Shown: piece after piece, positions 35,394-50,588 of the stretch
How the letters are laid out: each line of letters opens with the position of its first letter
Numbering within the stretch: position 1 is the first letter of the stretch
Translations under genes and position numbers: made by a program
Notes under the pieces: model-generated
What the model saw: only the letters and a program-made list of their open reading frames with translations
The model's database searches: none
Told to the model about the DNA's origin: nothing
Assembly: GCA_937888435.1 (NCBI GenBank)
Contig: CALAQS010000022.1
Location: 1-50,588, forward strand
Source: an uncultured Acidobacteriota bacterium
Lineage (GTDB): Bacteria > Acidobacteriota > Thermoanaerobaculia > UBA5066
Length of the DNA: 50,588 nt
Direction: 5' to 3'

Positions 35394-36902
35394 TCAGCGG
35401 ATTGCGGCCAGCTCGTAGAGGTAGTCCACGAACGAGCGCACCGCGCCGTCGTAGCCCGACACCTTCGGGTTAGAGGACTCGATCACGTAATACTCGTCGG
35501 GGGCGTGCGCCCCGCTGCCGTGGCCGAGACCGAAGTGGCCCGAGGCGAGCTTGAGAGGTTCGCCCGTGAAGACATACCCGGGGTACGAGCCGGCGCTCCG
35601 CACCCAGAGCAGCGGGTCGAGGCCGTCACGCTTCAGGAGCGCCACTTGTGCGCGGACGAGCGGCGCGTCGGCGGACGTCTCCGTGGGGCCATAACCGCCG
35701 GAGACGTTGACCTCGATGTCGCCGAAACCCCTCCTCGCGAGGTGCGCCTTCAGCGCCGTGATCGCGCCGTCGAATGTCATGTCAGGGACGAGGCGTAGGT
35801 CGAGCTTCGCGACGGCCTTGTTCGGGAGCAGCGTCTTGCCGCCCGGTCCCATGTAGCCTCCGACGAGACCCTCGATGTTCACGGTCGGCGAGAAGCAGAG
35901 GCGCTCGAGCGACTCGCGCCACGACGCGTCGTGGGCCCAGCGCGAGGCGCCGAGCATCTTTTTGGCCGTGGCCTCGTCGATGCGTTTCGCGGCCGCGTCG
36001 AGGAGCGCGGCCTGCGCGGCTGTCGGCGGCTTGGCGGCGGCGGCAAAACCGTCGATCGAGGGGTCGCCGTCGGCGTTCACGAGCGTCGCGAGGGCCTGAA
36101 TGAGGTGGAACGCCGGGCTGTCGAGCCGGGCGCGGTTCGCGGAGTGAACGTCCTTTGTGGGGCCGCGGCCCCACTTCGCGCCGCTCGAGACGAGCTCGCA
36201 TTCGACGACGCCCTTGGCGCCGAGGGAGACCGTGACCGAGCCGTCGGGGTCCTGGCTCGCGGACGGCATGAAGACGCCCATCGTCTTCCCGAGCGCGGCG
36301 AGGACCTCGGGTTTCCGCACGATCTCGGGAATGTGCGGCGAGCCGATCTCTTCCTCGCCCTCGGCGACGAGGACGAGGTTGACCGGCGGCTTTTTTCCGG
36401 CGCCGCGAATCGCGTGGAGAGCCGCGAGAAAAGCGGACTCGGGCCCCTTCTGGTTCACCGCGCCGCGGCCCACGATCACCTTGCCGAAGCCCGGCTTGTC
36501 GACGAGCGCCGCGTCGAACGGAGGCGACGACCACTCGGCGGGGTCGGCCTGCTTCACGTCGTACATGAAATAGACGCCGACGGTGCGCTTCGCGCCCGTG
36601 TCGAGCGCCGCGAAGACTCCCGGCTTCCCGCTCGTGTCGGCCTGCGCGGCGCTCTGGAAGCCGGCGTCCTTCAAGAGCTGGATCATCAGCGCGCATCCCT
36701 CGTTCGTCCCGCGGTTTTCGGCGGCGATCGAAGGGACCCGGATCCAGTCCAGCAGGCGTTTGACGGACTCGTCGTGGCGGCGCCCGATCTCGGCGTAGAT
36801 CGCGGAGAGTTCGTCGGCCGCGAAGGTGAAGCGGGGAAGGGAGGACACGGCGGCGGTGGCGGCGGCCGCGCCGAGGAGGTCACGGCGTGTGAGTTTCGGC
36901 AC
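35394..36902 (-). CDS. Tat-exported M20-fold hydrolase with altered metal ligands
   Basis: 502 residues of the M20/M25/M40 metallo-exopeptidase fold. KLTRRDLLGAAAATAA at residues 3-18 is a twin-arginine signal, so it should be folded in the cytoplasm before export. The family elements are recognisable, but two of them differ: the usual GHxD of the first metal ligand reads FMYD (Met113 replaces His, Asp115 kept), and the bridging Asp of GRGxxDxKG reads GRGAVNQKGP (Asn150 replaces Asp). The catalytic and ligand acids in EGEEEIGS (183-185) and a late His in GAHAPDEY are kept. Either a distinct subfamily with one or other metals, or an inactive or non-peptidase member. GTG 36902 lies seven bases after a TAGACT box, with no Shine-Dalgarno. 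Confidence 0.85.
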   Translation of the reverse strand: MPKLTRRDLLGAAAATAAVSSLPRFTFAADELSAIYAEIGRRHDESVKRLLDWIRVPSIAAENRGTNEGCALMIQLLKDAGFQSAAQADTSGKPGVFAALDTGAKRTVGVYFMYDVKQADPAEWSSPPFDAALVDKPGFGKVIVGRGAVNQKGPESAFLAALHAIRGAGKKPPVNLVLVAEGEEEIGSPHIPEIVRKPEVLAALGKTMGVFMPSASQDPDGSVTVSLGAKGVVECELVSSGAKWGRGPTKDVHSANRARLDSPAFHLIQALATLVNADGDPSIDGFAAAAKPPTAAQAALLDAAAKRIDEATAKKMLGASRWAHDASWRESLERLCFSPTVNIEGLVGGYMGPGGKTLLPNKAVAKLDLRLVPDMTFDGAITALKAHLARRGFGDIEVNVSGGYGPTETSADAPLVRAQVALLKRDGLDPLLWVRSAGSYPGYVFTGEPLKLASGHFGLGHGSGAHAPDEYYVIESSNPKVSGYDGAVRSFVDYLYELAAIR

Positions 36903-36909
36903 GAGACGA

Positions 36910-36915
36910 AGTCTA
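36910..36915 (-). promoter_or_regulatory. -10 box of a near-leaderless promoter (M20-fold gene)
   Basis: Minus-strand TAGACT is seven bases before the GTG at 36902, with no ribosome binding site between them. Confidence 0.4.
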
Positions 36916-36977
36916 CTTCGCCCGCCGGGCACGTGTCGGGGACCAAACTGGATGCATAATGGATACTGGAGGCCGCG

Positions 36978-37223
36978 ATGGCGACGTTGACGCTCAAGAA
37001 CGTGCCCGGAGAGCTGGTGGACGTCCTGAAGCAGGAGGCGAAGCAGAACCGCCGCAGCCTCAATCAGGAGGCCCTGTCGCGCCTCGAGCGGAGTCTCGAG
37101 AGCCGGAAGCGGAGCGGCGCCGAGACAGTTGCTTCGCTGCGGCTCCTTCACAGGCGGTTCGCCCGTCCGGCGTTCCTGACGGACCGGTTCATCGAAAGGG
37201 CGAAGAACGAGGGCCGGCCGTGA
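36978..37223 (+). CDS. Ribbon-helix-helix antitoxin (VapB/FitA-like)
   Basis: 81 residues. The N-terminal part (ATLTLKNVPGELVDVLKQEA, then NRRSLNQEALSRLE) is the ribbon-helix-helix pattern of FitA-type antitoxins, which bind DNA as dimers and repress their own operon. The charged C-terminal tail (FARPAFLTDRFIERAKNEGR) would wrap the toxin. ATG 36978 has CTGGAGG (36966-36972) five bases upstream; CATAAT at 36955-36960 may be the -10 box. Its stop overlaps the GTG of the PIN gene. No inverted operator repeat is obvious in the 75-base upstream gap. Confidence 0.85.
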   Translation: MATLTLKNVPGELVDVLKQEAKQNRRSLNQEALSRLERSLESRKRSGAETVASLRLLHRRFARPAFLTDRFIERAKNEGRP

Positions 37224-37627
37224 TCGTCGTCGACACGAACGTCGTCGCGTACGCCGTCCTTCCCGGAGACAGGACGGAGGCGTCGCTCGCCGTGGCGGAA
37301 CGCGACGCCGCTTGGATCGCCCCGGCCCTTTGGCGGTTCGAGCTCCGCAACGTGCTTGCGACGGCGATGCGATTGAAGAGCCTGCGGCTTCCGGCCGCGC
37401 TTGCCGCCTTCTCGGCCGCGGAAGACCTCGTCACGGACGCGGACCTCGTGGCCTCGACGGAGGAGTGCCTCAGGCTCGCCGTGCGGGGCGGCGTTTCCGC
37501 CTACGATGCCGAGTTCGTCCTGGTCGCGGAGCGGCTAGACGTTCCTCTCGTCACCGCCGACCGGAAGCTCGCGAAAGCATTTCCGGGCCTTGCCGTCTCG
37601 CCGGAGGCGTTCGCGCGGGGTGGCTAG
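37220..37627 (+). CDS. PIN-domain ribonuclease toxin (VapC/FitB-like)
   Basis: 135 residues of a PIN domain, the magnesium-dependent nuclease fold of VapC toxins that cleave tRNA or rRNA. Active-site acids are visible in order: VVDTNVVAY (Asp5), FELRNVLAT (Glu), SAYDAEFVLVAERL (Asp) and TADRKLAKAFP (Asp). GTG at 37220 overlaps the antitoxin stop (GTGA), the classic coupled toxin-antitoxin arrangement; the longer frame from 36959 shares no such logic. Complete and apparently functional, with nothing mobile nearby. Confidence 0.88.
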   Translation: MIVVDTNVVAYAVLPGDRTEASLAVAERDAAWIAPALWRFELRNVLATAMRLKSLRLPAALAAFSAAEDLVTDADLVASTEECLRLAVRGGVSAYDAEFVLVAERLDVPLVTADRKLAKAFPGLAVSPEAFARGG

Positions 37628-37786
37628 CCCGGTTACGCGTTACGGTGCCGGCCTCCACGTGAAGCGGCGGACCGGATAGTGACGGATGCGTCCGCCGGAG
37701 GCCTGAAAAACGGCGACGAGGCTCGCACCCTCAAGAGCTGGCATGCCGTCTTCGGCATGGCGGAAAGTCTACGCCGGCGCGCCTCG

Positions 37787-39001
37787 TCAGAAGGCCTGAC
37801 GACCTCCGGGCACGAAACGCGAGCCGCCGGCCGAGGGCTGGGACACGCCGGAGGCCGGGACGTCGAGGCGGCTTTCCGAGAGCTCCGAGCGCGAGGCGGG
37901 ACGTTCCCCGATGAGGAGGTCGAGCGCGCGCGTTTTGTCGTCACGGGAGAGCGTCAGCACCGCGCGCCCGCCGACGTGGAGGCGCGAGAGCGCCGCGGCC
38001 AGCGCCGGCGCGGTGCCGACGGGCATTCCGTCAATCGCCATGATGACCTCGCCGCCCACGAGGAGCGGCTGGCCGCCGATGACGAGGTCGAGGTCGCCTC
38101 CGCGCACGCCCGCCCGCGCGGCCGGGCTTCCGGGCTCGATCACCTCGACGAGGAGGCCGTCCGCGAGGGGCGCGCGAAGGAGCTCGCGCAGGGCCGGCGA
38201 GACGAGCTCGCCTTGCACGCCGAGCCAGGGCCGGATGACGCGCCCGTTCTCCAGGAGACCCGGGCCCACGGCGTTGACGAGGCTGACTGGGATCGCGAAC
38301 CCGATGCTCTGGGCGTCCGGGAGGATCGCGGTCGTGAGGCCCACGACATCGCCGCAGCGGTTGACGAGCGGGCCGCCCGAGTTGCCGGGGTTGATTGCGG
38401 CGTCGGTCTGGATCAGCGGTTCCTTCAGGTTCCACGTGGCGCCGGGGAGGACGCGGTTGACGGCCGAGACGATTCCGCGCGTCAGGGTCTGTTCGAGGCC
38501 GAACGGGTTCCCGATCGCATAGACCTCGTCCCCGACGCGCAGCGAATCCGAGTCGCCCAACCGGGCCACGGGCAGGGTTCCACCGGCCGGCGGGAGGACC
38601 TTGAGGAACGCGATGTCGAAGACCGGATCCGCGCCGACGATCCGCGCCGGAAGCGCCGTCCCGTCGTCGAGCGTGACGGTGACGAGCTGCTGCCCGAACA
38701 CGACGTGCGAGTTCGTCAGGATCAGGCCCGCCGCATCCACGATCACCCCGGAGGCGGCGTGCCGCTCGATCTGGTTGGCCGAATCCCCGTAGGGATTGAT
38801 CGATGCCGAGATGACCGAGACGACGGCCGGCGAGACCCGCTCGTAGAGCTCCGGAAGGGGGAGGGCGCACGGGCCCGCGGGCGGCGCTGGTCCGGCGGAC
38901 ACGGGCGCCGCGGCAAGAACGACGGCGAGAACGACGAGGAGGTTGGGAAAGACGGGGGGGAGGCAGCGGGGCGGGCGCGCGGAAGCGGAGGCCGTCGACA
39001 T
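37787..39001 (-). CDS. HtrA/DegP-type serine protease with PDZ domain
   Basis: Exported trypsin-like protease of family S1C, 404 residues. The N-terminus is a signal or anchor (NLLVVLAVVLAAAPVSAG). The triad is His99 (LTNSHVV), Asp129 (PVFDIAFLKV) and Ser208 (NPGNSGGPL); a single PDZ domain (about 265-370; GLLVEVIEPGSPAARAGVRGGDLDL) follows. The last 30 residues are Ser/Arg-rich and probably flexible. HtrA proteins degrade or refold damaged envelope proteins. ATG 39001 is taken because the longer start in another frame is a shadow. A TAATCT box (39030-39035, minus strand) lies 28 bases upstream and could be the promoter; there is no clear ribosome binding site. The gene is divergent from the S53 peptidase. 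About 160 bases downstream of its stop hold no gene that I can support. Confidence 0.9.
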   Translation of the reverse strand: MSTASASARPPRCLPPVFPNLLVVLAVVLAAAPVSAGPAPPAGPCALPLPELYERVSPAVVSVISASINPYGDSANQIERHAASGVIVDAAGLILTNSHVVFGQQLVTVTLDDGTALPARIVGADPVFDIAFLKVLPPAGGTLPVARLGDSDSLRVGDEVYAIGNPFGLEQTLTRGIVSAVNRVLPGATWNLKEPLIQTDAAINPGNSGGPLVNRCGDVVGLTTAILPDAQSIGFAIPVSLVNAVGPGLLENGRVIRPWLGVQGELVSPALRELLRAPLADGLLVEVIEPGSPAARAGVRGGDLDLVIGGQPLLVGGEVIMAIDGMPVGTAPALAAALSRLHVGGRAVLTLSRDDKTRALDLLIGERPASRSELSESRLDVPASGVSQPSAGGSRFVPGGRQAF

Positions 39002-39218
39002 GTACCATCAGACGGCCCGGGGGCCCTAAAGATTACGTCGGCCCGTAGCGCGCGGGCCGCGTCCGACGATGTCGAGCGCTCCTGTAATCCAGATGGGATC
39101 GCTCGCGTCGAATCTGAATGGTGCCGAGGCAAGAGAAAAAGGAACGCCGACCAGGCATGGCGAGAGGATGTCGTGAGGGGGTGCACGCACTCGATAGGCG
39201 GCGTACATAAACGGCGGC
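39002..39218. other. Divergent intergenic region
   Basis: 217 bases between HtrA and the S53 peptidase. It contains the TAATCT box for the minus gene and TACATA nine bases before the ATG at 39219 for the plus gene. I see no RNA gene, repeat or strong operator. Confidence 0.5.
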
Positions 39219-42200
39219 ATGGGGCGTGCGTCCAGCGGTCCGATGACTTCGACCAAGGACATGCCGCGCCACAAAGACATCGCACCGGGGCCGGGCCGGT
39301 CTCTTGTTCGCGCACTTCTCCTCGCCGCCGCCGGAGTCGTCGCCCTTCCCTTGTCCGCGGCCTCGCCGCGCGTCGTGAACGACGCCGACACGGTCGCGGT
39401 CTCCGGGAACGTCTCGCCGCGGCTCTTGGGGGCCGTCGACATCGGCCCGACGGACGGCGCTCTCCCGGTCGAGAAGATGATCCTCGTGCTCCGGCCACGG
39501 GCCGGCGCCTCCGACCGGCTCGAACGCCTCCTTGCCGAGCAGCTCGATCCCTCCTCGTCGAACTACCACCGCTGGCTGACGCCCGACGAGTACGGGAGCG
39601 AATTCGGCCTCACGGACGCGGACCTGAACGCCGTCCTGGACTGGCTCCAGCGGAACGGCTTCGCGGTCGACGGGGTAGCGCCGGGGAAGGGCTGGATCAA
39701 CTTCAGCGGCACCGTCGCGCAGGTGGAGACGACATTCCGGACGAAGATACGGGACTTCGTTGCCGGTGCCCGGCTCCACCATGCGAACGTTCGCGACCCC
39801 GAGGTGCCCCGCGCCCTCAACGACGTCGTGGGGGGAGTCGTCTCGCTCAACGACTTCTTCAAGACCTCACGGCTGCGCCACCGTCCCTCCATCGCCTTCA
39901 CGGACGGGACCCAGGGCCTGGGACCCGCAGACTTCGCCACCATCTACGACACGGCGCCGCTTCTCGCCGCCGGCGTCGACGGCAGGGGACAGACGATCGC
40001 CGTGGTCGCCCAGACCAACATCAAGATCACCGACGTGCAGCAATTCCGGAGCTTCTTCGGCCTGCCGGCACTGGATCCCGTCATCACGGTCAACGGGCCG
40101 GACCCGGGGATCCTCTCGGGCCCCGACGGCGACGAGGGCGAGGCGGACCTCGACGTCGAGTGGGCGGGGGCAGTGGCGCCCGGCGCGACCGTCAACCTCG
40201 TCGTGTCAAAGAGCACGTTCATGAGCGACGGCGTCGACCTCTCGGCGCAGTACATCGTGGATCACAATCTCGCGCCGATCGTGACGTATAGCTATGGAGA
40301 CTGCGAGAGCGACCTCGGGACCTCGGGGCTGCAGTTCTACGGCGCCCTGTGGCAGCAAGCGGCGGCCCAGGGCATGACCGTCTTCGTCGCCTCGGGGGAC
40401 AACGGAGCTGCTGGCTGCGACGATCCCAACACGGCCTCTACCGGTACCGGACTGGGGGTGAACGGGCTCGCGTCCACGCCCTACAACGTGTGCGTGGGGG
40501 GGACTCAGTTCGTGGACGCGAGCTCGTCCCAGTACTGGAGTCCGAGCAACAACCCTTTGACCAACTATCTCACCGCGAAATCGTTCATCCCGGAGCAGGC
40601 CTGGAACGAGAGCGGGTCCGTGAGCGGGGGCAGCGGGATCTGGGCAACGTCCGGGGGTCCCTCGGCCTACGTCGCCAAGCCCTCCTGGCAATCTGCACCG
40701 GGAGTCCCGAGCGATGGCTTCCGGGACACCCCGGATGTCTCCCTGAACTCCGCCTCGAGCGTCGGCTACGTCACGTTCACGGAGTACGTCCCCAGCTCGG
40801 GCTTGTTGGACGTCTCCAGCGGCACCTCTGCGTCCGCGCAATGCTTCGGCGGGATCATGGCGCTGGTCAACCAGAGTGCCGGCGGAGGCCGCCAGGGAAA
40901 CCCGAACCCCGTCCTCTACCGGCTCGCGACAGCGCAGTACGGGGGCTCGGGAGCCGCGGTCTTCCACGACGTCACGGCCGGCAACAACAGCGTCCCCGGT
41001 GTCGCGGGCTTCTCCGCGGGACCGGGCTACGACCTCGCCACGGGGCTCGGCTCGGTGGACGTTCAGGCCCTCGTCAACGCCTTCGGAACGGCGTCGGGCC
41101 CCGGCCTCGCGGTGGCGGCCGGGCCGTCGTCCGTCTCGTTCGCGGTGGGGAGCTCGGCAAGCGTGAACGTCACGACGACGGGAACCGGAGGCTTCAGCGC
41201 GGCCGTGGGCCTCTCCGTCAGCGGCCTTCCGACCGGAGTGACGGGCACCTTCGTCCCGCAGAGCGTACCGGCGCCCGGGAGCGGCAGCGCCACCCTCACC
41301 CTTGCGTCCTCTGTGTCGGCCACTCCCGGAACCTGGGCCGCCACCGTGACGGCGTCCGGGGGCGGTCTGACCCGGACGGCGCCGGTCTCCGTCACGATCG
41401 TCCCACTAGCGCCGCCCGCGATCGCCTCCTTCACCGCGAGCCCGGTGATCGTCGCGCCGGGGCAGTCGAGCACGCTGAGCTGGACCACCGTCGGCGCCAC
41501 GTCCGCGAGCATCGACAACGGCGTCGGACCGGTTCCGGCCAGCGGGTCGGTGGCCGTCAGTCCCGCGCAGGGCACGAGGTACACGCTCACCCTGGCCGGT
41601 CCCGGCGGAACCGCCGGCGCGACCGCCGCGGTCAACGTCTCCGGCGCCTTCTTCTCGGTGACCCGCCTCGTCCCGGTCGTGCTCGACGCGGCGGGGCTCG
41701 GCGGCGCGAGCTTCTCGACCGAGCTGACCCTGGCGAACCGGGGGACGCTGACGGCCGACGTCCAGCTGGCGTACACGGCGGCGTCCACCCTTTCGGGAGC
41801 GGGCAGCGGGTCCGTGGCGACGACGCTCGGGCCCGGTCAGCAGCTCGTCATCCCGGACACGATCGCGTACCTCAGGACGCAGGGCCTGTCCATCCCGGCG
41901 AACGCGTCCAGCCAGGGGGGAGCCCTGCTCGTGACCTTCAGCGGCCTCTCCTCGGGCGACGTGGCCTTCGCGTCCGCGCGGACCACGACGCCTTCGGGAT
42001 CGGGACATGCGGGACTCTCCTACGCCGGGGCCCGTGTGGACGACGTGAACGTCCAGAGCGGGGTCCAGACGGGGACGAGCTGGCTGTACGGCCTGCGCGA
42101 GAACACCGCGGACCGGACGAACCTCGCCCTCGTGAACGCCTCCGCGAGCTCCGCCATCACGCTCGCCGTCACCCTGTTCAACGGCACGGGAGCCGGGAGC

Positions 42201-43139
42201 TTCAGGCTCTCCCCCGACGTCTCGCTCGGTCCGGGCCAGTGGACGCAGATCGGTCAGGTGCTGTCCCAGGCGGGCTTCGCCGCGGGATACGCCCGCATCG
42301 ACCTCCTCTCCGGGTCCGGCCCGTACTACGTCTATGCCGTCTTCAACGACAACGTCACGAACGACGGCTCGTTCGTCCCTCCCGGAACCGGCAGCCCTCC
42401 TTCGGAGGCCCTGTGTCTTCCCGTGCTCGTGGAGACGTCGGTCTTCCAGAGTGAGCTCGTCCTGACGAACGGCAGCACCGTCGCGCAGTCCGCCACGCTC
42501 GCCTACGCGGAGTCGCTCGCCCCGTCTCTCGGGAACGGAGGCAGCGTCGCCCTGACGCTCGCCGCCGGAGAGCAGCGGATCATCCCGGCCGCGATCGATT
42601 TCCTCAGGCAGCAGCAGGGCGTCTCGATCGGACCGTTGGGCGCCGCATCCTACGCGGGCAGCCTGTCCGTGACCTTCCGGACGAGCGGGGCCCTTTCGAG
42701 CGGATTCGCAGGGGCGCGCGTGTCGGCGGCGGCGCCGGGGGGCGGCGAATACGGCGTCTTCTATCCCGCGTTCGGCGTCTCCGGGTCCGCCGCGTCCGAG
42801 GCCTGGGTCTTCGGGCTGCAGCAGACGCCGAGCGTCCGGTCGAACCTCGCCGTCACGAACGTCGGCGACGTGGGAGGGAGCATCACCTTCCACCTCGAGG
42901 TGTACGACGGGAACACGGGCCAGCTCGCCGGAACCTCCGCGGACACAACGCTCGGCCCGCTCGCCTGGCTCCAACTCGACGACGTCCTCATGGGGTACGG
43001 CGTGTCGAACGGCTTCGTGCGGGTCGTCACGACGGCGGGGACCGATCACTTCATCGCGTACGGCGTCGTCAACGACGGAGCGACTCCGACCAGCGGGGGC
43101 ACCAACGACGGGAGCTTCCTCGCGTTCTGCAACCGCTGA
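39219..43139 (+). CDS. Secreted S53 (sedolisin/kumamolisin) peptidase with duplicated C-terminal region
   Basis: 1306-residue acid serine peptidase precursor of family S53. A signal peptide lies at about 28-50 (SLVRALLLAAAGVVALPLSA), so initiation at a later ATG (39243 or 39261) is also possible. A pro-kumamolisin activation domain spans about 65-195. The catalytic domain (about 220-620) has EGEADLDVEWAG (Glu and Asp of the Ser-Glu-Asp triad), SSGTSASAQCFGGIMALVNQ (Ser near 536), and the calcium-site GYDLATGLGSVDV. Downstream are two Ig-like domains (about 630-810; second FTASPVIVAPGQSSTLSW). The last 490 residues are two related repeats (about 813-1050 and 1065-1306), each with an ELxLxN-like opening, an IIPAxIxFLRxQ-like helix and an FNDxxTNDGSF-like end. 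Probably degrades proteins outside the cell, matching the S9 and M20-fold genes. Confidence 0.93.
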   Translation: MGRASSGPMTSTKDMPRHKDIAPGPGRSLVRALLLAAAGVVALPLSAASPRVVNDADTVAVSGNVSPRLLGAVDIGPTDGALPVEKMILVLRPRAGASDRLERLLAEQLDPSSSNYHRWLTPDEYGSEFGLTDADLNAVLDWLQRNGFAVDGVAPGKGWINFSGTVAQVETTFRTKIRDFVAGARLHHANVRDPEVPRALNDVVGGVVSLNDFFKTSRLRHRPSIAFTDGTQGLGPADFATIYDTAPLLAAGVDGRGQTIAVVAQTNIKITDVQQFRSFFGLPALDPVITVNGPDPGILSGPDGDEGEADLDVEWAGAVAPGATVNLVVSKSTFMSDGVDLSAQYIVDHNLAPIVTYSYGDCESDLGTSGLQFYGALWQQAAAQGMTVFVASGDNGAAGCDDPNTASTGTGLGVNGLASTPYNVCVGGTQFVDASSSQYWSPSNNPLTNYLTAKSFIPEQAWNESGSVSGGSGIWATSGGPSAYVAKPSWQSAPGVPSDGFRDTPDVSLNSASSVGYVTFTEYVPSSGLLDVSSGTSASAQCFGGIMALVNQSAGGGRQGNPNPVLYRLATAQYGGSGAAVFHDVTAGNNSVPGVAGFSAGPGYDLATGLGSVDVQALVNAFGTASGPGLAVAAGPSSVSFAVGSSASVNVTTTGTGGFSAAVGLSVSGLPTGVTGTFVPQSVPAPGSGSATLTLASSVSATPGTWAATVTASGGGLTRTAPVSVTIVPLAPPAIASFTASPVIVAPGQSSTLSWTTVGATSASIDNGVGPVPASGSVAVSPAQGTRYTLTLAGPGGTAGATAAVNVSGAFFSVTRLVPVVLDAAGLGGASFSTELTLANRGTLTADVQLAYTAASTLSGAGSGSVATTLGPGQQLVIPDTIAYLRTQGLSIPANASSQGGALLVTFSGLSSGDVAFASARTTTPSGSGHAGLSYAGARVDDVNVQSGVQTGTSWLYGLRENTADRTNLALVNASASSAITLAVTLFNGTGAGSFRLSPDVSLGPGQWTQIGQVLSQAGFAAGYARIDLLSGSGPYYVYAVFNDNVTNDGSFVPPGTGSPPSEALCLPVLVETSVFQSELVLTNGSTVAQSATLAYAESLAPSLGNGGSVALTLAAGEQRIIPAAIDFLRQQQGVSIGPLGAASYAGSLSVTFRTSGALSSGFAGARVSAAAPGGGEYGVFYPAFGVSGSAASEAWVFGLQQTPSVRSNLAVTNVGDVGGSITFHLEVYDGNTGQLAGTSADTTLGPLAWLQLDDVLMGYGVSNGFVRVVTTAGTDHFIAYGVVNDGATPTSGGTNDGSFLAFCNR

Positions 43140-43193
43140 CGAAGGTCCGGGCCCTTCGAGGTAAACCTCGCGGAGTCGATCCGCGTCTCTCTT

Positions 43194-44669
43194 GTGGTGC
43201 GTGCTTCATCCCACGGGACCATCCTCTCGTTCGCACGCCGCAACGTTTTCCGGCTTCTGGCCGTCGTCGTGGCGATCCTGGCCGCCGCCGGCTTCTTCTG
43301 GTGGAGGGTGAGGCACCGGAAGCCGCAATACGTCACGGCGGCGGTGACGCGCGGCAACATCCAGCGCAGCGTCAGCATGACCGGCGCGCTGAATCCGCTC
43401 GTCACGGTGCAGGTCGGATCCTACGTCTCCGGCACGATCAAGACGCTCGGTTGCGACTACAACACGGAGGTCGTGGTCGGGCAGGTCTGCGCGACGATCG
43501 ACCCCGTCCCGTTCCAGCTCATCGTCGATCAGGACCAGGCCGAGGTGGGAGTGGCCGAGGCGCAGCTCAAGAAGGACAAGGCCGCCCTCGTCTACGCGAA
43601 GATCGCCTGGGAGCGCGATTCGAAGCTGCTCACCGAGGGCTCGGTGTCGCAGGACACGGTGGACAACGACAAGAGCACGATGGACCAGACGACCGCCACG
43701 ATCGGCCTCGACGAGGCGACGATCGTCAACAAGGTCGCGACGCTGAAGGCGGCGAAGGTGAACCTGGCCTACACGAACATCGTGTCGCCGGTCGTCGGTA
43801 CGGTCATCACGCGCGCCATCGACGTCGGGCAGACCGTGGCCGCGAGTCTGGCGAGCCCGACCCTCTTCCTCATCGGCAAGGACCTGACGAAGATGCAGGT
43901 CGACACCAACGTGAGCGAAGCGGACGTCGGCTCGGTGCACGTCGGGCAGGATGCGTTCTTCACCGTGCAGGCGTACCCCGGCCGGACGTTCCGGGGCAAG
44001 GTTACGATGATCCGCCACGGGCCGATCACAGTGCAGAACGTCGTCACGTACGACGTCGTCGTGGCCGTGGACAATCCGGACCGCGCGCTCTTCCCCGGCA
44101 TGACGGCCGACACGCACATCGTGTCCGACGAGCACGACGGCGTCCTGCGCGTCCCGCTGCCGGCCGTGCGCTTCAATCCGGAGGGCATTGCCCGCTCCCT
44201 GGGAAACGGGGCCCGCAAGGAGGAGGGTGGAGCTCCGGTGCCGGGCGAGAGCGGGCCCGGGACGCGCGCCGGGGAGGGCAGACGCGCGAGCACGGGCGCC
44301 GGGAGCGGCACCCGCCCCAAAGGCGCGGGGGAGGGCCACGGCGGACCCGAGGCCCGGGCCGCCGGCGCTGGCACCGGGAGGCCCGCCGTCAGGGAGCGCT
44401 GGGGCGAGAGCCGGCCCGCGAGCGCGAGCGTCCATAAAAGCCGGGTCTGGGTGCTGAACGGCGACGGCACGCTGCGGGCGGTGGAGGTGACGACTGGCCT
44501 CGACGACGGCGCCCTGATCGAGGTCTCAGGCGAGGACCTCGAGCCGGGAGACAAAGTCGTGGTCAATCAGGTCAACCCTTCCGATCAGGGGCGCGGCGGC
44601 GCGGGGTCCGGCCCGAACCCGGCGTTCGGCCGGGGACAGGGCGCGGGCCCGGGAGGGCCGCGGTTGTGA
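43194..44669 (+). CDS. MacA-like periplasmic adaptor of an ABC exporter
   Basis: Membrane-fusion protein of 491 residues that links the inner-membrane ABC pump to an outer-membrane channel. An N-terminal anchor (FRLLAVVVAILAAAGFFWW, about 23-41) precedes the barrel-sandwich hybrid half (VQVGSYVSGTIKTLGCDYNTEVVVGQ), an alpha hairpin (about 108-180), the second half with AYTNIVSPVVGTVITRAIDVGQTV, and a beta-barrel domain. A stretch of about 75 residues rich in Gly, Ala, Arg, Pro and Glu (about 338-412) separates the beta barrel from the terminal strands (SRVWVLNGDGTLRAVEVTTG); typical MacA lacks it. GTG 43194 is immediately followed by a second GTG. The stop overlaps the macB-like start (GTGA). 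Confidence 0.88.
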   Translation: MVRASSHGTILSFARRNVFRLLAVVVAILAAAGFFWWRVRHRKPQYVTAAVTRGNIQRSVSMTGALNPLVTVQVGSYVSGTIKTLGCDYNTEVVVGQVCATIDPVPFQLIVDQDQAEVGVAEAQLKKDKAALVYAKIAWERDSKLLTEGSVSQDTVDNDKSTMDQTTATIGLDEATIVNKVATLKAAKVNLAYTNIVSPVVGTVITRAIDVGQTVAASLASPTLFLIGKDLTKMQVDTNVSEADVGSVHVGQDAFFTVQAYPGRTFRGKVTMIRHGPITVQNVVTYDVVVAVDNPDRALFPGMTADTHIVSDEHDGVLRVPLPAVRFNPEGIARSLGNGARKEEGGAPVPGESGPGTRAGEGRRASTGAGSGTRPKGAGEGHGGPEARAAGAGTGRPAVRERWGESRPASASVHKSRVWVLNGDGTLRAVEVTTGLDDGALIEVSGEDLEPGDKVVVNQVNPSDQGRGGAGSGPNPAFGRGQGAGPGGPRL

Positions 44670-46762
44670 GCGCGACGGAGGAATCCAGCACGGCGCCGAA
44701 TACGGTCATCGCGGTCCGCAACGTGACCAAGGTCTATCAGCTGGGAGACCAGGAGGTCCACGCCCTCAGGGGAGTCAGCCTGACGATCGAGCGCGGCGAG
44801 TTCGTCGCCATCATGGGAGCCTCGGGGTCGGGAAAGTCCACCCTCATGAACATCATCGGCTGTCTCGACCAGCCCACCGCCGGCGAGTACCTCCTCGACG
44901 GGATCGACGTCGCCGGCCTGGACGAGCCCGCGCTGGCGCGCATCCGCAGCCTTCGGATCGGCTTCGTGTTCCAGAGCTTCAACCTGCTGTCGCGCACGAG
45001 TGCGGCCGAGAACGTCGCGCTGCCGCTCTTCTACTCGGGTCAGCGGGCCGGCAGCGCCGGCAAGGTGCGCGAAACGCTGGCCCTGCTCGGCCTCGCCGAG
45101 CGCGCGCGCAACCATCCCAACCAGCTTTCCGGCGGCCAGCAGCAGCGCGTGGCGATGGCCCGCGCCCTGATCAACGACCCGACGATCCTGCTCGCCGACG
45201 AGCCGACGGGCAACCTCGACTCGCAGACGGCCAAGGAGATTCTGGGGACGATCCGGGCGCTCAATCGCGAACGCGGCCTGACGGTCGTTCTCGTCACCCA
45301 CGAACGGGCGATGGCTGAGATTGCCGACCGCATCGTCACCATCAGCGACGGCCTCGTCCTGTCCGACGAGCGGAGAGCCGAGAGGACCCCGGCACCCTCC
45401 CCGCCGGCCGCGGCGTCCCACGACGGCCGGCAGCCGGCGTCGCGGCTGTCCGAGGCGCGGTCCTTCCTCTGGATGGCGTTGCTCGCCGCGGGGCGGGGCA
45501 TCAGCCGCAACAAGCTGCGCTCGGCGCTGACGATGCTCGGCATCTTCATCGGCGTCGCCGCCCTGATCGCCATGCTGGCGGTCGGCGAAGGGGCGCGCGC
45601 GGCCCTCAAGGCGCAGCTCGACAGCCTGGGCACGAACCTCCTCGTCGTGCTTCCGGGGACGATCCGCTTCAACGGCGTGCGGTCGGGCATCGGCAGCGCG
45701 ACCAGCCTCCGGGCGACCGACGGCGCCGCGATCCTCGAAGAGGATTCCGCCGTCTCCGACATCAGCTACGTGAACCGCCAGTCCGGCCAGGTCGTCAACG
45801 GCAGCCTGAACTGGTCGACGAGCATCCAGGGCGTCACGCCGAGCTACCTGTCGATCCGGGATTGGCCGGTGGTGGCGGGGCGCAGGCTCGACGACCAGGA
45901 CGAGAACAATGCCCGCACGGTCTGTCTGCTGGGCCGGACCGTGCTCACGAACCTCTTCGGAGAGTTCCAGGACCCGGTCGGCGCCACCATCCGGGTCAAG
46001 AACGTGGACATGGAGGTCGTGGGCGTGCTCGGCGTCAAGGGCCACTCGGCGTCGGGGCAGGACCAGGACGACACCGTCCTCATCCCGTTCCGCACGTCGC
46101 AGGAGAGGGTCCTTGGCGTGGCCGCCCCCAGCTCGGCACAGGCCCAGTCGACGGTCTTCTTCACGCCGCCCAATCCTTTCGGGATCCAGCCAAGGCTGAC
46201 GGGGTTCGTGCACACGATGTACGTGCAGGCGCGCAGCACGGAGCTGGTCAAGACCGCGCTCTTGCAGGTGACTCAGACGCTCGAGCGGCTCCACCGGATC
46301 AAGCCCGGCCAGCCCGACGACTTCGCCGTGCGCGATCTGACCGAGATCGCCGAGGTGGCCGAGCAGAGCAGCCGCGTGATGGAGCTGCTCCTGGCGGCGA
46401 TCGCCTCGATCTCGCTGCTCGTCGGCGGCATCGGCATCATGAACATCCTGCTCGTCTCGGTCACCGAGCGCACGCGCGAGATTGGAATCCGGATGGCGAT
46501 CGGCGCCCGGCGCGTTCACGTCCTTCTCCAGTTTCTCGTCGAGGCCGCGCTGCTGAGCCTGATGGGCGGCGGGGCCGGCGTGCTGATCGGCGCCGTCTCA
46601 TCGAAGGTGATCTCGAAGGTGGCCGGCTGGCCGACGCTGCTGCATCCGGTCGTCGTGCTCGCGGCCTTCCTCTTCTCGGCGGCGATCGGCCTCTTCTTCG
46701 GCTACTACCCAGCGCGCCAGGCCTCTCTTCTGAATCCGATCGACGCCCTGCGCTATGAGTAG
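44666..46762 (+). CDS. MacB-like ABC transporter (ATPase plus FtsX permease)
   Basis: 698-residue fusion of an ABC ATPase and a four-helix FtsX/MacB permease. The ATPase (about 10-235) has Walker A GASGSGKSTLMN, Q loop FVFQSFNLL, signature LSGGQQQRVAMARAL, Walker B ILLADEPTG and the H loop THER. A linker of about 35 Pro/Ala/Arg residues leads to the first membrane helix (KLRSALTMLGIFIGVAALIAML, about 285-310). A large periplasmic domain (about 315-560) and three C-terminal helices follow. In known systems it drives a mechanical push through MacA and TolC to export macrolides, lipopeptides or protein toxins. Substrate here unknown. Its 3' end overlaps the OprM-like gene by eight bases. Confidence 0.92.
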   Translation: MSATEESSTAPNTVIAVRNVTKVYQLGDQEVHALRGVSLTIERGEFVAIMGASGSGKSTLMNIIGCLDQPTAGEYLLDGIDVAGLDEPALARIRSLRIGFVFQSFNLLSRTSAAENVALPLFYSGQRAGSAGKVRETLALLGLAERARNHPNQLSGGQQQRVAMARALINDPTILLADEPTGNLDSQTAKEILGTIRALNRERGLTVVLVTHERAMAEIADRIVTISDGLVLSDERRAERTPAPSPPAAASHDGRQPASRLSEARSFLWMALLAAGRGISRNKLRSALTMLGIFIGVAALIAMLAVGEGARAALKAQLDSLGTNLLVVLPGTIRFNGVRSGIGSATSLRATDGAAILEEDSAVSDISYVNRQSGQVVNGSLNWSTSIQGVTPSYLSIRDWPVVAGRRLDDQDENNARTVCLLGRTVLTNLFGEFQDPVGATIRVKNVDMEVVGVLGVKGHSASGQDQDDTVLIPFRTSQERVLGVAAPSSAQAQSTVFFTPPNPFGIQPRLTGFVHTMYVQARSTELVKTALLQVTQTLERLHRIKPGQPDDFAVRDLTEIAEVAEQSSRVMELLLAAIASISLLVGGIGIMNILLVSVTERTREIGIRMAIGARRVHVLLQFLVEAALLSLMGGGAGVLIGAVSSKVISKVAGWPTLLHPVVVLAAFLFSAAIGLFFGYYPARQASLLNPIDALRYE

Positions 46763-48227
46763 GAGGCGCGCCGCCTTCGTCTCTTGCCTGACGCTCGCGC
46801 TCGGCGGCTGCCTCGTCGGCCCGGACTTCAAGCCGCCGGCGCCTCCCGACGTCGACGCTTACCGGACGCCGGAATCGCCGGCGCAGAAGGCGGAGAGCGA
46901 CACCGATGCGGCGCAGCGCATCGCGCTCGGACAGCGCATCCCGGCGCAATGGTGGGCGTTGTTCCACAGCTCGCGCCTCGACGAGACGCTGCGCCAGGCG
47001 ATCGCCGCCAGCTACACGCTGGCCGCCGCCAAGGCCACTCTCGCGCAGGTCCAGGAGGCGGTCGTGGAGGCCCGTGCCGCGCTCTACCCGCAGGTCGATC
47101 TCGGCGCGTCGGCACGCCGTTCGACCGCCGGGGCGGGGTTGGGCACGGAGAATCTCTTTTCCGTCGGCCCGAGCGTCAGCTACTCGATCGATGCGTTCGG
47201 CGGGACACGGCGACACATCGAACAGGCAGCGGCTCTGGCGGAGAACCAGCGCTATCAGCTCGTGGCGGCGTACCTCACCTTGACCGGCGGCTCCGTCACG
47301 CAGGCGATCACGATCGCCTCGACGAACTTGCAGATCGCGACGGTCGAGGACCTGATCAAGAACGACCAGAAGAACTTCGATCTCACGAAGCATGCGTTCG
47401 ACGCCGGCAAGGTGGCCCAGAGCGACGTCCTGACCGCCGAAGCGCAGCTGGCGGGCGACCGCACGCAACTCGCGCCGCTGCATCAGCAGCTGAGCGTCGC
47501 CCGCCACGCGCTGTCCGTTCTGGCCGGCCGGGCCCCGGGTCAATGGACGCCGCCGGATTTCGACATCGACGAGCTCACGCTGCCCGAGGATGTGCCCGTC
47601 AGTCTGCCTTCGGAGCTCGTCCACCAGCGCCCCGACATCCTGGCGTCCGAGGCGCTCCTCCACGCCGACAGCGCGGCGATCGGAGTGGCGACCGCGCAGC
47701 TGTACCCCTCGATCACCCTTTCGGCCTCCCTCGGTCTTGCGACGCAGACGCTCGCGAGCCTGGTGCGTTCCGCGAGCCGCGCCTGGGACGCGGGCGCCGG
47801 CGTCGACGCGCCCCTGTATCACGGGGACGCCCTGCGAGCGCAGCGGCGCGCCGCGGTCGACGCCTACGACGCCCAGCTCGCGACCTACCGACAGACGATC
47901 CTGCTGGCCTTCGGCCAGGTGGCGGACTCCTTGAGCGCTCTCGAGCACGATGCCGAGCTCGTGTCCGTGTCGCGCCGCTCGGTCGATATCGCCAGCCGCT
48001 CGCTGGCCGTGCAGCGCTCGAGCTATGCGGCGGGGAAAACGAGCGCGCTCCAGCTCATCGTCGCCGAGAACACCTATTCCAGCGCGCGCCTCGGCTACGT
48101 GCGCGCCATCGGCCAGCGCCTGTCGGATACGGCCCAGCTCTTCGTCGCCCTCGGCGGCGGCTGGTGGAACGACGCGGATCTGGCACCGTGCCCTCCCGCA
48201 CGACCTGATTGCACACCGTTGCCGTGA
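46755..48227 (+). CDS. OprM/NodT-type outer-membrane efflux lipoprotein
   Basis: 490-residue outer-membrane channel of the RND-type efflux outer-membrane lipoprotein (NodT/OprM) group. A lipoprotein signal ends in LGGCLVGPDFKPP, with the acylated Cys at residue 19. Two outer-membrane-efflux domains are visible: helical coils with the typical RPDILASEALLHADSAAIGVATAQLYPSITL element in the second, and an SYAAGKTSALQLIVAENTYSSARL element near the end. ATG 46755 overlaps the macB-like gene end by eight bases. The three genes 43194-48227 form a complete tripartite exporter. No regulator is adjacent. Confidence 0.9.
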   Translation: MSRRRAAFVSCLTLALGGCLVGPDFKPPAPPDVDAYRTPESPAQKAESDTDAAQRIALGQRIPAQWWALFHSSRLDETLRQAIAASYTLAAAKATLAQVQEAVVEARAALYPQVDLGASARRSTAGAGLGTENLFSVGPSVSYSIDAFGGTRRHIEQAAALAENQRYQLVAAYLTLTGGSVTQAITIASTNLQIATVEDLIKNDQKNFDLTKHAFDAGKVAQSDVLTAEAQLAGDRTQLAPLHQQLSVARHALSVLAGRAPGQWTPPDFDIDELTLPEDVPVSLPSELVHQRPDILASEALLHADSAAIGVATAQLYPSITLSASLGLATQTLASLVRSASRAWDAGAGVDAPLYHGDALRAQRRAAVDAYDAQLATYRQTILLAFGQVADSLSALEHDAELVSVSRRSVDIASRSLAVQRSSYAAGKTSALQLIVAENTYSSARLGYVRAIGQRLSDTAQLFVALGGGWWNDADLAPCPPARPDCTPLP

Positions 48228-48257
48228 CGGGCGGCCCGGCGGGCCGGGAAGATCACG

Positions 48258-48314
48258 TCAGCCACGGCTTCGCATCAGGTTGAACTTCGCGAGCTCGGCG
48301 TAGGTGAGGGTAGA
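48258..48314. repeat. Downstream copy of a direct repeat flanking the M48 gene
   Basis: This 57-bp stretch matches 50512-50568 in the same orientation, with an unbroken identity of 31 bp (48272-48302 against 50526-50556) and a few substitutions elsewhere. On the minus strand it encodes TYAELAKFNLMRSRG and a stop, the same tail as the partial gene at the right edge, but it has a TAA stop seven codons before that Thr-Tyr, so here it is only a gene fragment. Confidence 0.8.
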
Positions 48315-48331
48315 GGATTACGCGAGACGCC

Positions 48332-50500
48332 TCATGAAACGGCGTCAGCGTTCGGAGCCGCCAGCAGCGGCAGGCCCGCCGCGGATTCCGAGGCCTCCGC
48401 GAGGGCGGCGAGCTCTCCGAGGAGGCGCGCGTGGAGGGCGAACGCCCGAGTCAGGATGTCCCGGGCGACGCGGGACCCCTCCCCTTGCCGCGGTGCGTCC
48501 GGAACGAGGTGTCCGGCCAGCGGCATGCTCCCCGAGCCGTTCGGGAAGTGGTAGACGACGTCGCCGACCTTCGTCGCCATCTCGTCGACGCGCGCGCACA
48601 ACCGGGACCGAAGCAACTCGAGATGCTGCCGGACTCTCTCGTCACCGGGAAGCTCGGCCTGCGCGGCCGCGAGCACGTCGAAGCAGGCGAGATCGTCGCG
48701 GAGGTCGACCAGCTCGTCGTCGATCCGGCCCAACGCCTCGAGAACGGCGAGGAATGATTCGGCCGCTCGTCGCGGCCGGCCGCTCGGCGACTCGAGGAGA
48801 GCGAGAGCGAGCCTTCGCCGTTGGATGCCCTCGTAGGGCCGAAGATAGGCGCGACTCTCCTGCAGCGCGCCGCTCGTGCGTTGGAGAGCGGCAACCACGC
48901 CCTCCGCGTTCGCAGATTGGAGACGGAAGTAGCGGGCATTGATCGGCACGCCTGCCGCCAGGAGCGACGCTGCCTGACGGGCCAGGGAGCGAGCCTCGGC
49001 CACGCGGCACCATCGCACTTCGGCCTCACGCGCGGTGCGCAACTCAGGAGTGAGCTGCGCACGCAAGACCTCGAGCGCTTCCCGTAACGCGCCCGGTCGA
49101 GCGGGGGATCCGGAGGCCGCGTCGGCCGTCCGTGCTTCCGGAAAGAATCGCCAGCCTCCGGCCCCGATACCCTGGAAGAAGCGGATTCGGGCCTCGTCCG
49201 GTGCGCCGTGCGAGGCCGCCCTGGCCTTCCGCTGACGCTCGAGCACCGCCGAAGTGGCGACGAGGTCCTGGGCCGTGACCGGTCCGTAGAGCTCGCGGGT
49301 CACCCGGCGGCAGATACCGGCAAAGTCGCGGAAGATCGCGCTCGCGGGCGCATCGATCTGAAGACAGCCACGGCCTTCGCGGTGCGCCCTCGCGATGCGG
49401 TCGCGCACGGAAGGATGGGTGTCGAAGAACCCGGTCTCGCGCCCGAGGGCCGCGTTGCGCACCCGTCGTGCGAGCGCGGGCGAGAGCGAGCCCGCTCTCG
49501 CGGCGACGAGCGCCGGGAGGTCGTCCGGGAGGCGACCGAGCTCGCCGGTCTCGATTTCGCTCTCGATGACGAAACTCGCGATGGCAAGGAGTTCGAGCTG
49601 CTGGAGGGTCGCCGCCTTCGTGCTGCCCCCGACGAGCCTCGCCTCGTACCGGTCGGCATCGCGCTCCCTCTCCCGGCTGAGCAGGCAGCTGAGCCCGTGT
49701 CCGACGATCATCAACACCCACAGGACACGGCGCGTCGTCCAGACGGCCGCCCGCGCCAGCAGGGCGGGCAGCTGCGCGAGCGCGCTCCCACTCTGGTCTT
49801 CGAGCCACTCGATGAGCTGTTCGTCCCACGTGTCTCGCTCGTACACGGCCCGGGCGAACCAGTCGTTGACGCCGTCGATGAAGCGGCCCAGCCGCGTGGC
49901 ACCGCCCTGGCCGAGATGTCCGAGCTCGTGAGCGAGAACGCCGACGAACTGACGAAAGGTCAACCCCGCGACGAGCGGGAGTCCGATCTCGACGAAGATC
50001 CTGCCGTGAAGACGGCGGGCGAGCCCCATGTGCAACCCCGCGCCCGCATTCACACGTGCGCTCGCGTGGATCGCCGTCGGCGCGGGCGTCCCGACGAGGC
50101 GGGCGAGCTTCTCGGCCAGGGCGTAGAGGTGCGGCTCCTCCTCGCGCCGGATCGCACGCGAAGGCGCCCACTGGGGCCTTGAGGCGAAGAGCGGCTTGAG
50201 GAGCAGCAGCAGGACGACGACTCCGGCGAAGAGAGGCCCGAAATAGAGAAGGAGGCTTCCGTAGGCTCCCGCGACGCTGTGCAGCGGCGAAAACCCCGAT
50301 GACGCATGCAGGAAAAGAACGGTCGCGGTTCCGGCCACGATGAGCAGGTAGAGGACGGGCAGGAGCAGCATCGCAGCCGCCACGAGTAGCAGGGCGAGCG
50401 CGTAGAAGATGGTGATCCGGGGTCTCGGAAACTTGGCCGGAAGCGCGTCGAGGAGGTGCCGTGGGTCTTCGCGGGTGGCCGGAGGCGTCGACGCCGGCAC
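48332..50500 (-). CDS. M48-family membrane zinc metallopeptidase
   Basis: 722 residues with two or three membrane segments at the start (about 30-60 and 85-110; FYALALLLVAAAMLLLPVLY), then the peptidase domain. The zinc site is VLAHELGHLGQ (near 191) with the third ligand in RERERDADRYEARLVGG (near 280). Another hydrophobic segment (WTTRRVLWVLMIVGHGLSCLL) precedes it. The C-terminal 380 residues are Arg/Ala/Glu-rich and mainly helical, and I know no function for them. HtpX and Ste24-type relatives degrade misfolded membrane proteins. GTG 50500 is 11 bases after the stop of an upstream minus-strand gene, implying an operon. The gene is bracketed by a direct repeat (48258-48314 and 50512-50568). 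Confidence 0.88.
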   Translation of the reverse strand: MPASTPPATREDPRHLLDALPAKFPRPRITIFYALALLLVAAAMLLLPVLYLLIVAGTATVLFLHASSGFSPLHSVAGAYGSLLLYFGPLFAGVVVLLLLLKPLFASRPQWAPSRAIRREEEPHLYALAEKLARLVGTPAPTAIHASARVNAGAGLHMGLARRLHGRIFVEIGLPLVAGLTFRQFVGVLAHELGHLGQGGATRLGRFIDGVNDWFARAVYERDTWDEQLIEWLEDQSGSALAQLPALLARAAVWTTRRVLWVLMIVGHGLSCLLSRERERDADRYEARLVGGSTKAATLQQLELLAIASFVIESEIETGELGRLPDDLPALVAARAGSLSPALARRVRNAALGRETGFFDTHPSVRDRIARAHREGRGCLQIDAPASAIFRDFAGICRRVTRELYGPVTAQDLVATSAVLERQRKARAASHGAPDEARIRFFQGIGAGGWRFFPEARTADAASGSPARPGALREALEVLRAQLTPELRTAREAEVRWCRVAEARSLARQAASLLAAGVPINARYFRLQSANAEGVVAALQRTSGALQESRAYLRPYEGIQRRRLALALLESPSGRPRRAAESFLAVLEALGRIDDELVDLRDDLACFDVLAAAQAELPGDERVRQHLELLRSRLCARVDEMATKVGDVVYHFPNGSGSMPLAGHLVPDAPRQGEGSRVARDILTRAFALHARLLGELAALAEASESAAGLPLLAAPNADAVS

Positions 50501-50511
50501 GAACGCCGCTC

Positions 50512-50568
50512 TCAGCCCCGGCTTTGCATCAGGTTGAACTTCGCGAGCTCGGCGTACGTGACCGTCGA
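50512..50568. repeat. Upstream copy of the direct repeat flanking the M48 gene
   Basis: Partner of 48258-48314, about 51 of 57 positions identical by eye. Here it forms the real C-terminus of an open frame on the minus strand. Confidence 0.8.
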
Positions 50569-50588
50569 GTCGAGGTCCTCGCGCGCGA
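50512..50588 (-). CDS. C-terminal end of a gene cut by the window edge
   Basis: The minus-strand frame reading AREDLDSTVTYAELAKFNLM followed by QSRG and a stop is open to the right edge. Only about 24 residues are present and I do not recognise the family. It lies 11 bases upstream of the M48 gene and is probably cotranscribed with it. The fragment at 48258-48314 is a copy of this tail. Confidence 0.5.
   Translation of the reverse strand, partial: AREDLDSTVTYAELAKFNLMQSRG

Follow-up and report, generated by a model that had tools for sequence, protein, structure and literature searches.

The window, which is the whole of contig C22 (50,588 nucleotides, from a genome of 3.70 Mb in 366 contigs), carries near its right end a gene for an M48-family metallopeptidase that is bracketed by two copies of the 3′ end of an adjacent AAA+ ATPase gene. 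We read this repeat as the scar of a horizontal insertion at the ATPase 3′ end, homologous on one side only, in which the M48 gene was the incoming part and the old ATPase tail was displaced, and we put the probability of this reading at about one half. The insertion scar is real, represents a known kind of event and is explained in outline. It is a well-preserved trace of gene gain, with filled, empty and island-free versions of the site among four species of one genus, so that the order of events should be resolvable with a few more genomes. It also appears to be a one-sided insertion displacing a gene's own end outside the toxin-immunity loci where such events are usually described.

Architecture of the repeat pair

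The two copies of the direct repeat (58 bp) lie 2254 nt apart in the same orientation and agree at 52 of 58 positions (90%). The sequence-only reading had described such a repeat with a 31-bp perfect core on either side of the M48 gene, and exactly one perfect 31-mer is present; the repeat also lies where it was placed, the gaps to the gene being 11 and 16 nt where 12 and 17 had been given. Four differences fall in the first 13 bp and two in the last 45 bp, and the match between the copies stops exactly at the stop codon, which fits a donor with an ATPase-M48 junction of its own. First-order Markov resampling of the 4-kb region, carried out 60 times, gave 0.0 repeated 18-mers or longer. A sample of 351 kb of non-N sequence from the same genome contains four further sites with comparable repeats (at least 85% identity, at least 35 bp, spacing below 12 kb). 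A search for further tail copies found no third one across the genome, nor at the far end of the neighbouring island (window ~36.9 kb). At a separate locus (L152, G000:C130, 630-673 and 1765-1808), a 44-bp, 91% direct repeat with copies ~1.1 kb apart lies near an IS-type transposase fragment and resembles a duplicated gene piece.

Table 1. Coordinates of the features in the window.
Feature	Position	Strand	Basis or remark
M20 peptidase gene	35394-36890		flanks the island on the side far from the ATPase gene
Variable island at the ATPase 3′ end, absent from G003	36900..48257	.	M20 comes directly after the ATPase gene in G003
PIN toxin gene	36959-37627		island member
HtrA-like protease gene	37787-39001	-	island member
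Sedolisin-like protease gene	39219-43139		island member
HlyD gene	43194-44669		island member
MacB gene	44666-46762		island member
TolC-type outer membrane efflux gene	46755..48227	+	PF02321; convergent with the ATPase gene in G002
Repeat copy 2, displaced non-coding ATPase tail remnant	48258..48315	-	90% to copy 1; continuous with native intergenic sequence and TolC in G002
Junction between M48 stop and displaced tail, 16 nt	48316..48331	-	no significant match to native intergenic sequences
M48-family metallopeptidase gene, putatively inserted, 722 aa	48332..50500	-	PF01435 E=2e-9; HELGH motif
Repeat copy 1, functional ATPase gene tail	50512..50569	-	alignment of copies
ATPase gene 3′ end, MoxR/Mg-chelatase-like AAA+	50512..50588	-	stop codon 50512-50514; body on C85:1-1544 (minus)

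As the M48 gene lies on the minus strand, the copy upstream of it is the right-hand one. This copy is, as had been proposed, the true C-terminus of the adjacent frame (ending in EDLDSTVTYAELAKFNLMQSRG before the stop codon). Extension of the contig to the right showed that the first 55 bp of contig C85 equal window 50534-50588 exactly and that C85 carries the rest of the ATPase gene, the reading frame running on across the two contigs to give an intact protein of 522 aa with weak domain matches (AAA_5, BchD/ChlD). The contig breaks exactly at this 55-bp node in the ATPase tail, just before a base that is variable among congeners, perhaps because the sampled population contains a second variant of the tail. 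The left-hand copy (ending in STLTYAELAKFNLMRSRG before the stop codon) is preceded by a stop codon and lacks its own start; it is an untranslatable remnant, in line with its earlier description as a fragment. It retains the family-typical MRSRG, where the intact ATPase gene has MQSRG. The displaced stretch contains a strong GC hairpin with a fold z of only -1.6, and no T-tailed terminator was found in it.

The M48 gene and its distribution

The M48 gene begins with GTG, 11 nt past the ATPase stop codon. Its PF01435 match lies above the cut-off, and in an alignment with three distant relatives the HELGH motif is invariant and the ExDADRxE region is kept. The gene is likely co-transcribed with the ATPase gene and expressed from the ATPase promoter, and the newcomer would thereby gain a chance of expression.

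The gene is rare. It is absent from all three congeners, and only 8 of 101 relatives show any match at all. At E<=1e-20, 7 of the 149 genomes of the class have it, and under a stricter cut-off 3 of 396 genomes sampled across the phylum, its own included. The one other family member that carries it (G009, 36%) does so at a different location. The closest relatives reach 31-36% identity, with a best partial match of 42%. Codon usage of the gene is not unusual (rank 40 of 167), and no mobile vehicle was found for it among plasmids, phages and viral contigs. Among the M48 relatives examined, the ATPase gene lies nearby in only one other genome, G076 of the same class and another family, where the gene order is ATPase, vapBC, M48. 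The vapBC-type pair at this locus (L058, G076:C2, 4866-9594) sits on the opposite strand between the two genes.

The same site in related genomes

All three congeners carry the ATPase gene (89-91% protein identity) with the same 3′ end, and most of the family has it too. What follows it differs in all four species of the genus. In G002, the native ATPase tail is followed by the TolC-type gene within 50 bp, and no M48 gene intervenes. Window 46055-48315 aligns with contig C47 of this genome without a break at 89.6% DNA identity, the alignment beginning 58 bp before the end of the ATPase gene, spanning TolC and including the downstream tail copy. The displaced copy therefore holds the native right-hand context, and the M48 gene together with one tail copy is what our genome has in addition. 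This arrangement supports the proposal that the M48 gene was inserted. Directly behind the ATPase gene, G003 has the M20 peptidase gene, which in the window lies 11.4 kb further left, and G001 has yet another gene. The congener sequences past the ATPase stop are mostly unrelated, and homology among the congeners, too, mostly ends at the stop codon.

Over the last 45 bases of the tail, the two copies in the window differ at 2 positions, the window and its congeners at 3-6, and the displaced copy and the G002 tail at 5. As the two copies are closer to each other than to any congener, the duplication was fairly recent or took place within the lineage. In G009 (L018, G009:C508, 2935-2985), a 12-bp second copy of the ATPase tail (GAAGAGCCGGGG, then CTGA) lies 36 bp past the stop; it may be another small tail duplication or chance.

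The neighbouring efflux and protease island

The island to the left of the displaced tail is common to our genome and G002. Between the two, fourfold-site divergence amounts to 0.12-0.16 for the sedolisin and efflux genes and to 0.00-0.03 for PIN and HtrA at the M20 end, against 0.23-0.40 for six backbone genes on C85. With values of ~0.14 for the island and ~0.32 for the backbone, the island postdates the split of the species and was exchanged piecemeal; its uneven identity speaks against a single transfer. On one side, the G002-like homology stops precisely where the displaced tail has its outer edge (48315); on the other it reaches into M20 at 98%, the M20 identities being taken from DNA rather than from fourfold sites. 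The PIN-toxin/HtrA stretch (window 36529-38859) is 98% identical to G002 (mostly 99-100%), compared with ~83% for backbone DNA, and represents a very recent exchange at a toxin-antitoxin-like module. Within G002, two versions of the M20 5′ end (end of C51 and start of C44; L157, L158) are 92% alike, reflecting a duplicated gene or mixed strains.

Proposed origin and alternatives

In the reading we prefer, the incoming DNA would have contained the M48 gene preceded by the end of a related ATPase gene. Its ATPase end would have paired and recombined homologously with the resident ATPase gene, while its other end, just past the M48 stop, would have been joined without real homology some 45-58 bases before the end of the resident gene, making the 16-nt stretch past the M48 gene the putative illegitimate joint. 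The outcome would be an intact ATPase gene whose tail is incoming or recombinant, the M48 gene directly behind it, and the old resident tail moved 2.25 kb downstream, still joined to its native neighbour TolC. The rarity of the gene in the genus and in most of the family, the empty site in G002 and the existing ATPase-M48 linkage in G076 support an insertion of M48. At the junctions, tail homology is found on one side, and the 16-nt flank past M48 shows no significant homology, its best shuffle p against the native ATPase-M20 intergenic sequence being ~0.12. Against this reading stand the distant relatives of M48, which include no matching donor, its unremarkable codon usage, the single further instance of a nearby ATPase gene, and the recent exchange of the island, which could have brought the tail instead. 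No mosaic signal was seen along the ATPase gene, its 3′ half included, although a tract that was short or came from a close donor would escape notice. We give about even odds to M48 as the incoming part, the ATPase gene as the anchor and a one-sided (homology-facilitated illegitimate) mechanism. The scar is filed as a likely, not a proven, case of the HFIR type, because the anchor tract is not demonstrable in the ATPase gene.

It is possible, if rather unlikely, that the M48 gene already stood behind the ATPase gene and that the island, coming from a G002-like donor with the order ATPase tail, TolC and so on to M20, brought the displaced tail with it by recombining homologously in M20 and being joined illegitimately just past M48. 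The youth of the island relative to the species split, the exact end of its G002-like homology at the displaced tail, its continuation into M20 and the gene order in G076 would all suit such a history; the island, however, was not acquired in one transfer, and the displaced tail is nearer to the intact tail of its own genome than to that of G002 (2 against 5 differences), a weak argument as it concerns 45 bp only and one species-level distance is nearly as small. The two-copy state could instead be old in the genus, G002 having lost M48 by recombination between the repeats and kept a clean site. Such a deletion would give exactly the G002 structure. The sequence-only reading had expected loss of M48 in this way to restore an intact neighbour, but there is nothing to restore, because the ATPase gene is already intact. 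Although the 6 differences in 58 bp resemble those between species, this history requires a further loss, G001 and G003 have different neighbours, and a non-coding copy should have diverged beyond 2 in 45 given the backbone fourfold values; we consider it improbable.

Integrated elements typically leave direct repeats of a gene end by which the gene is restored, and such repeats, together with the change of neighbours from species to species and the short second tail in G009, would allow the ATPase 3′ end to be an attachment site, with the repeats as attL and attR and M48 as the cargo of an integrase-borne or trans-mobilised cassette. The repeats enclose M48 alone and no integrase gene, however, and no integrase domain was found in the eight neighbouring genes scanned. 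The repeat contains mismatches, M48 was not found in plasmids, phages or viral contigs, and the tail copy in G009, the only possible one, is short and perhaps due to chance; we consider site-specific integration very improbable. Least credible of all is a tandem duplication of the ATPase-M48 unit followed by deletion, which the sequence-only reading had also offered, or an assembly artefact. No relative has a second ATPase or M48 copy at this place, and two deletions would be needed that end exactly at native intergenic sequence. The contig does stop within the ATPase tail, where it shares a 55-bp graph overlap with C85, but C22 alone covers M48, the tail and a further 19 bp of ATPase sequence past the repeat, so that the structure is independent of the contig join. 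The perfect core, at 31 bp, also falls short of the assembler overlap of 55.

Parallels in known systems

HFIR is known in competent bacteria and, rarely, in E. coli conjugation (PMC3240628). Most integrants in the E. coli study carried homologous-end duplications (109-950 bp), which its authors ascribed to a single crossover (PMC3240628). The proposed insertion resembles HFIR in having one homologous and one illegitimate end and in the gain of foreign DNA beside a homologous gene. It differs in that only a genomic scar is at hand, and in that HFIR usually leads to a deletion, whereas here a short duplication is seen. In T6SS clusters of V. cholerae, displaced 3′ ends of effector genes and orphan immunity genes are described, orphan Rhs tips are a further example, and HFIR has been proposed (PMC5361080). 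There, as in the window, the 3′ end of a resident gene is shifted behind newly inserted genes, with the conserved upstream gene region as the anchor. In our case, by contrast, an AAA+ ATPase would be the anchor and a membrane M48 protease would be the cargo, toxin-immunity logic plays no part, and the displaced part is only 45-58 bp long and non-coding. Genomic islands at gene 3′ ends (attL/attR) likewise have direct repeats of a gene 3′ end flanking an insert while the gene stays intact; unlike them, the site studied here has no integrase, no known att family and a single-gene insert.

As the island is absent from G003 and the M48 gene from G002, the ATPase 3′ end is a junction at which foreign DNA was joined more than once. 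It marks the border of a conserved cluster, past which foreign sequence has repeatedly been attached. Whether the same 3′ end serves in the family as a recurrent, integrase-free landing site for single genes and islands via the short tail is doubtful; successive insertions at such a site would leave displaced tails.
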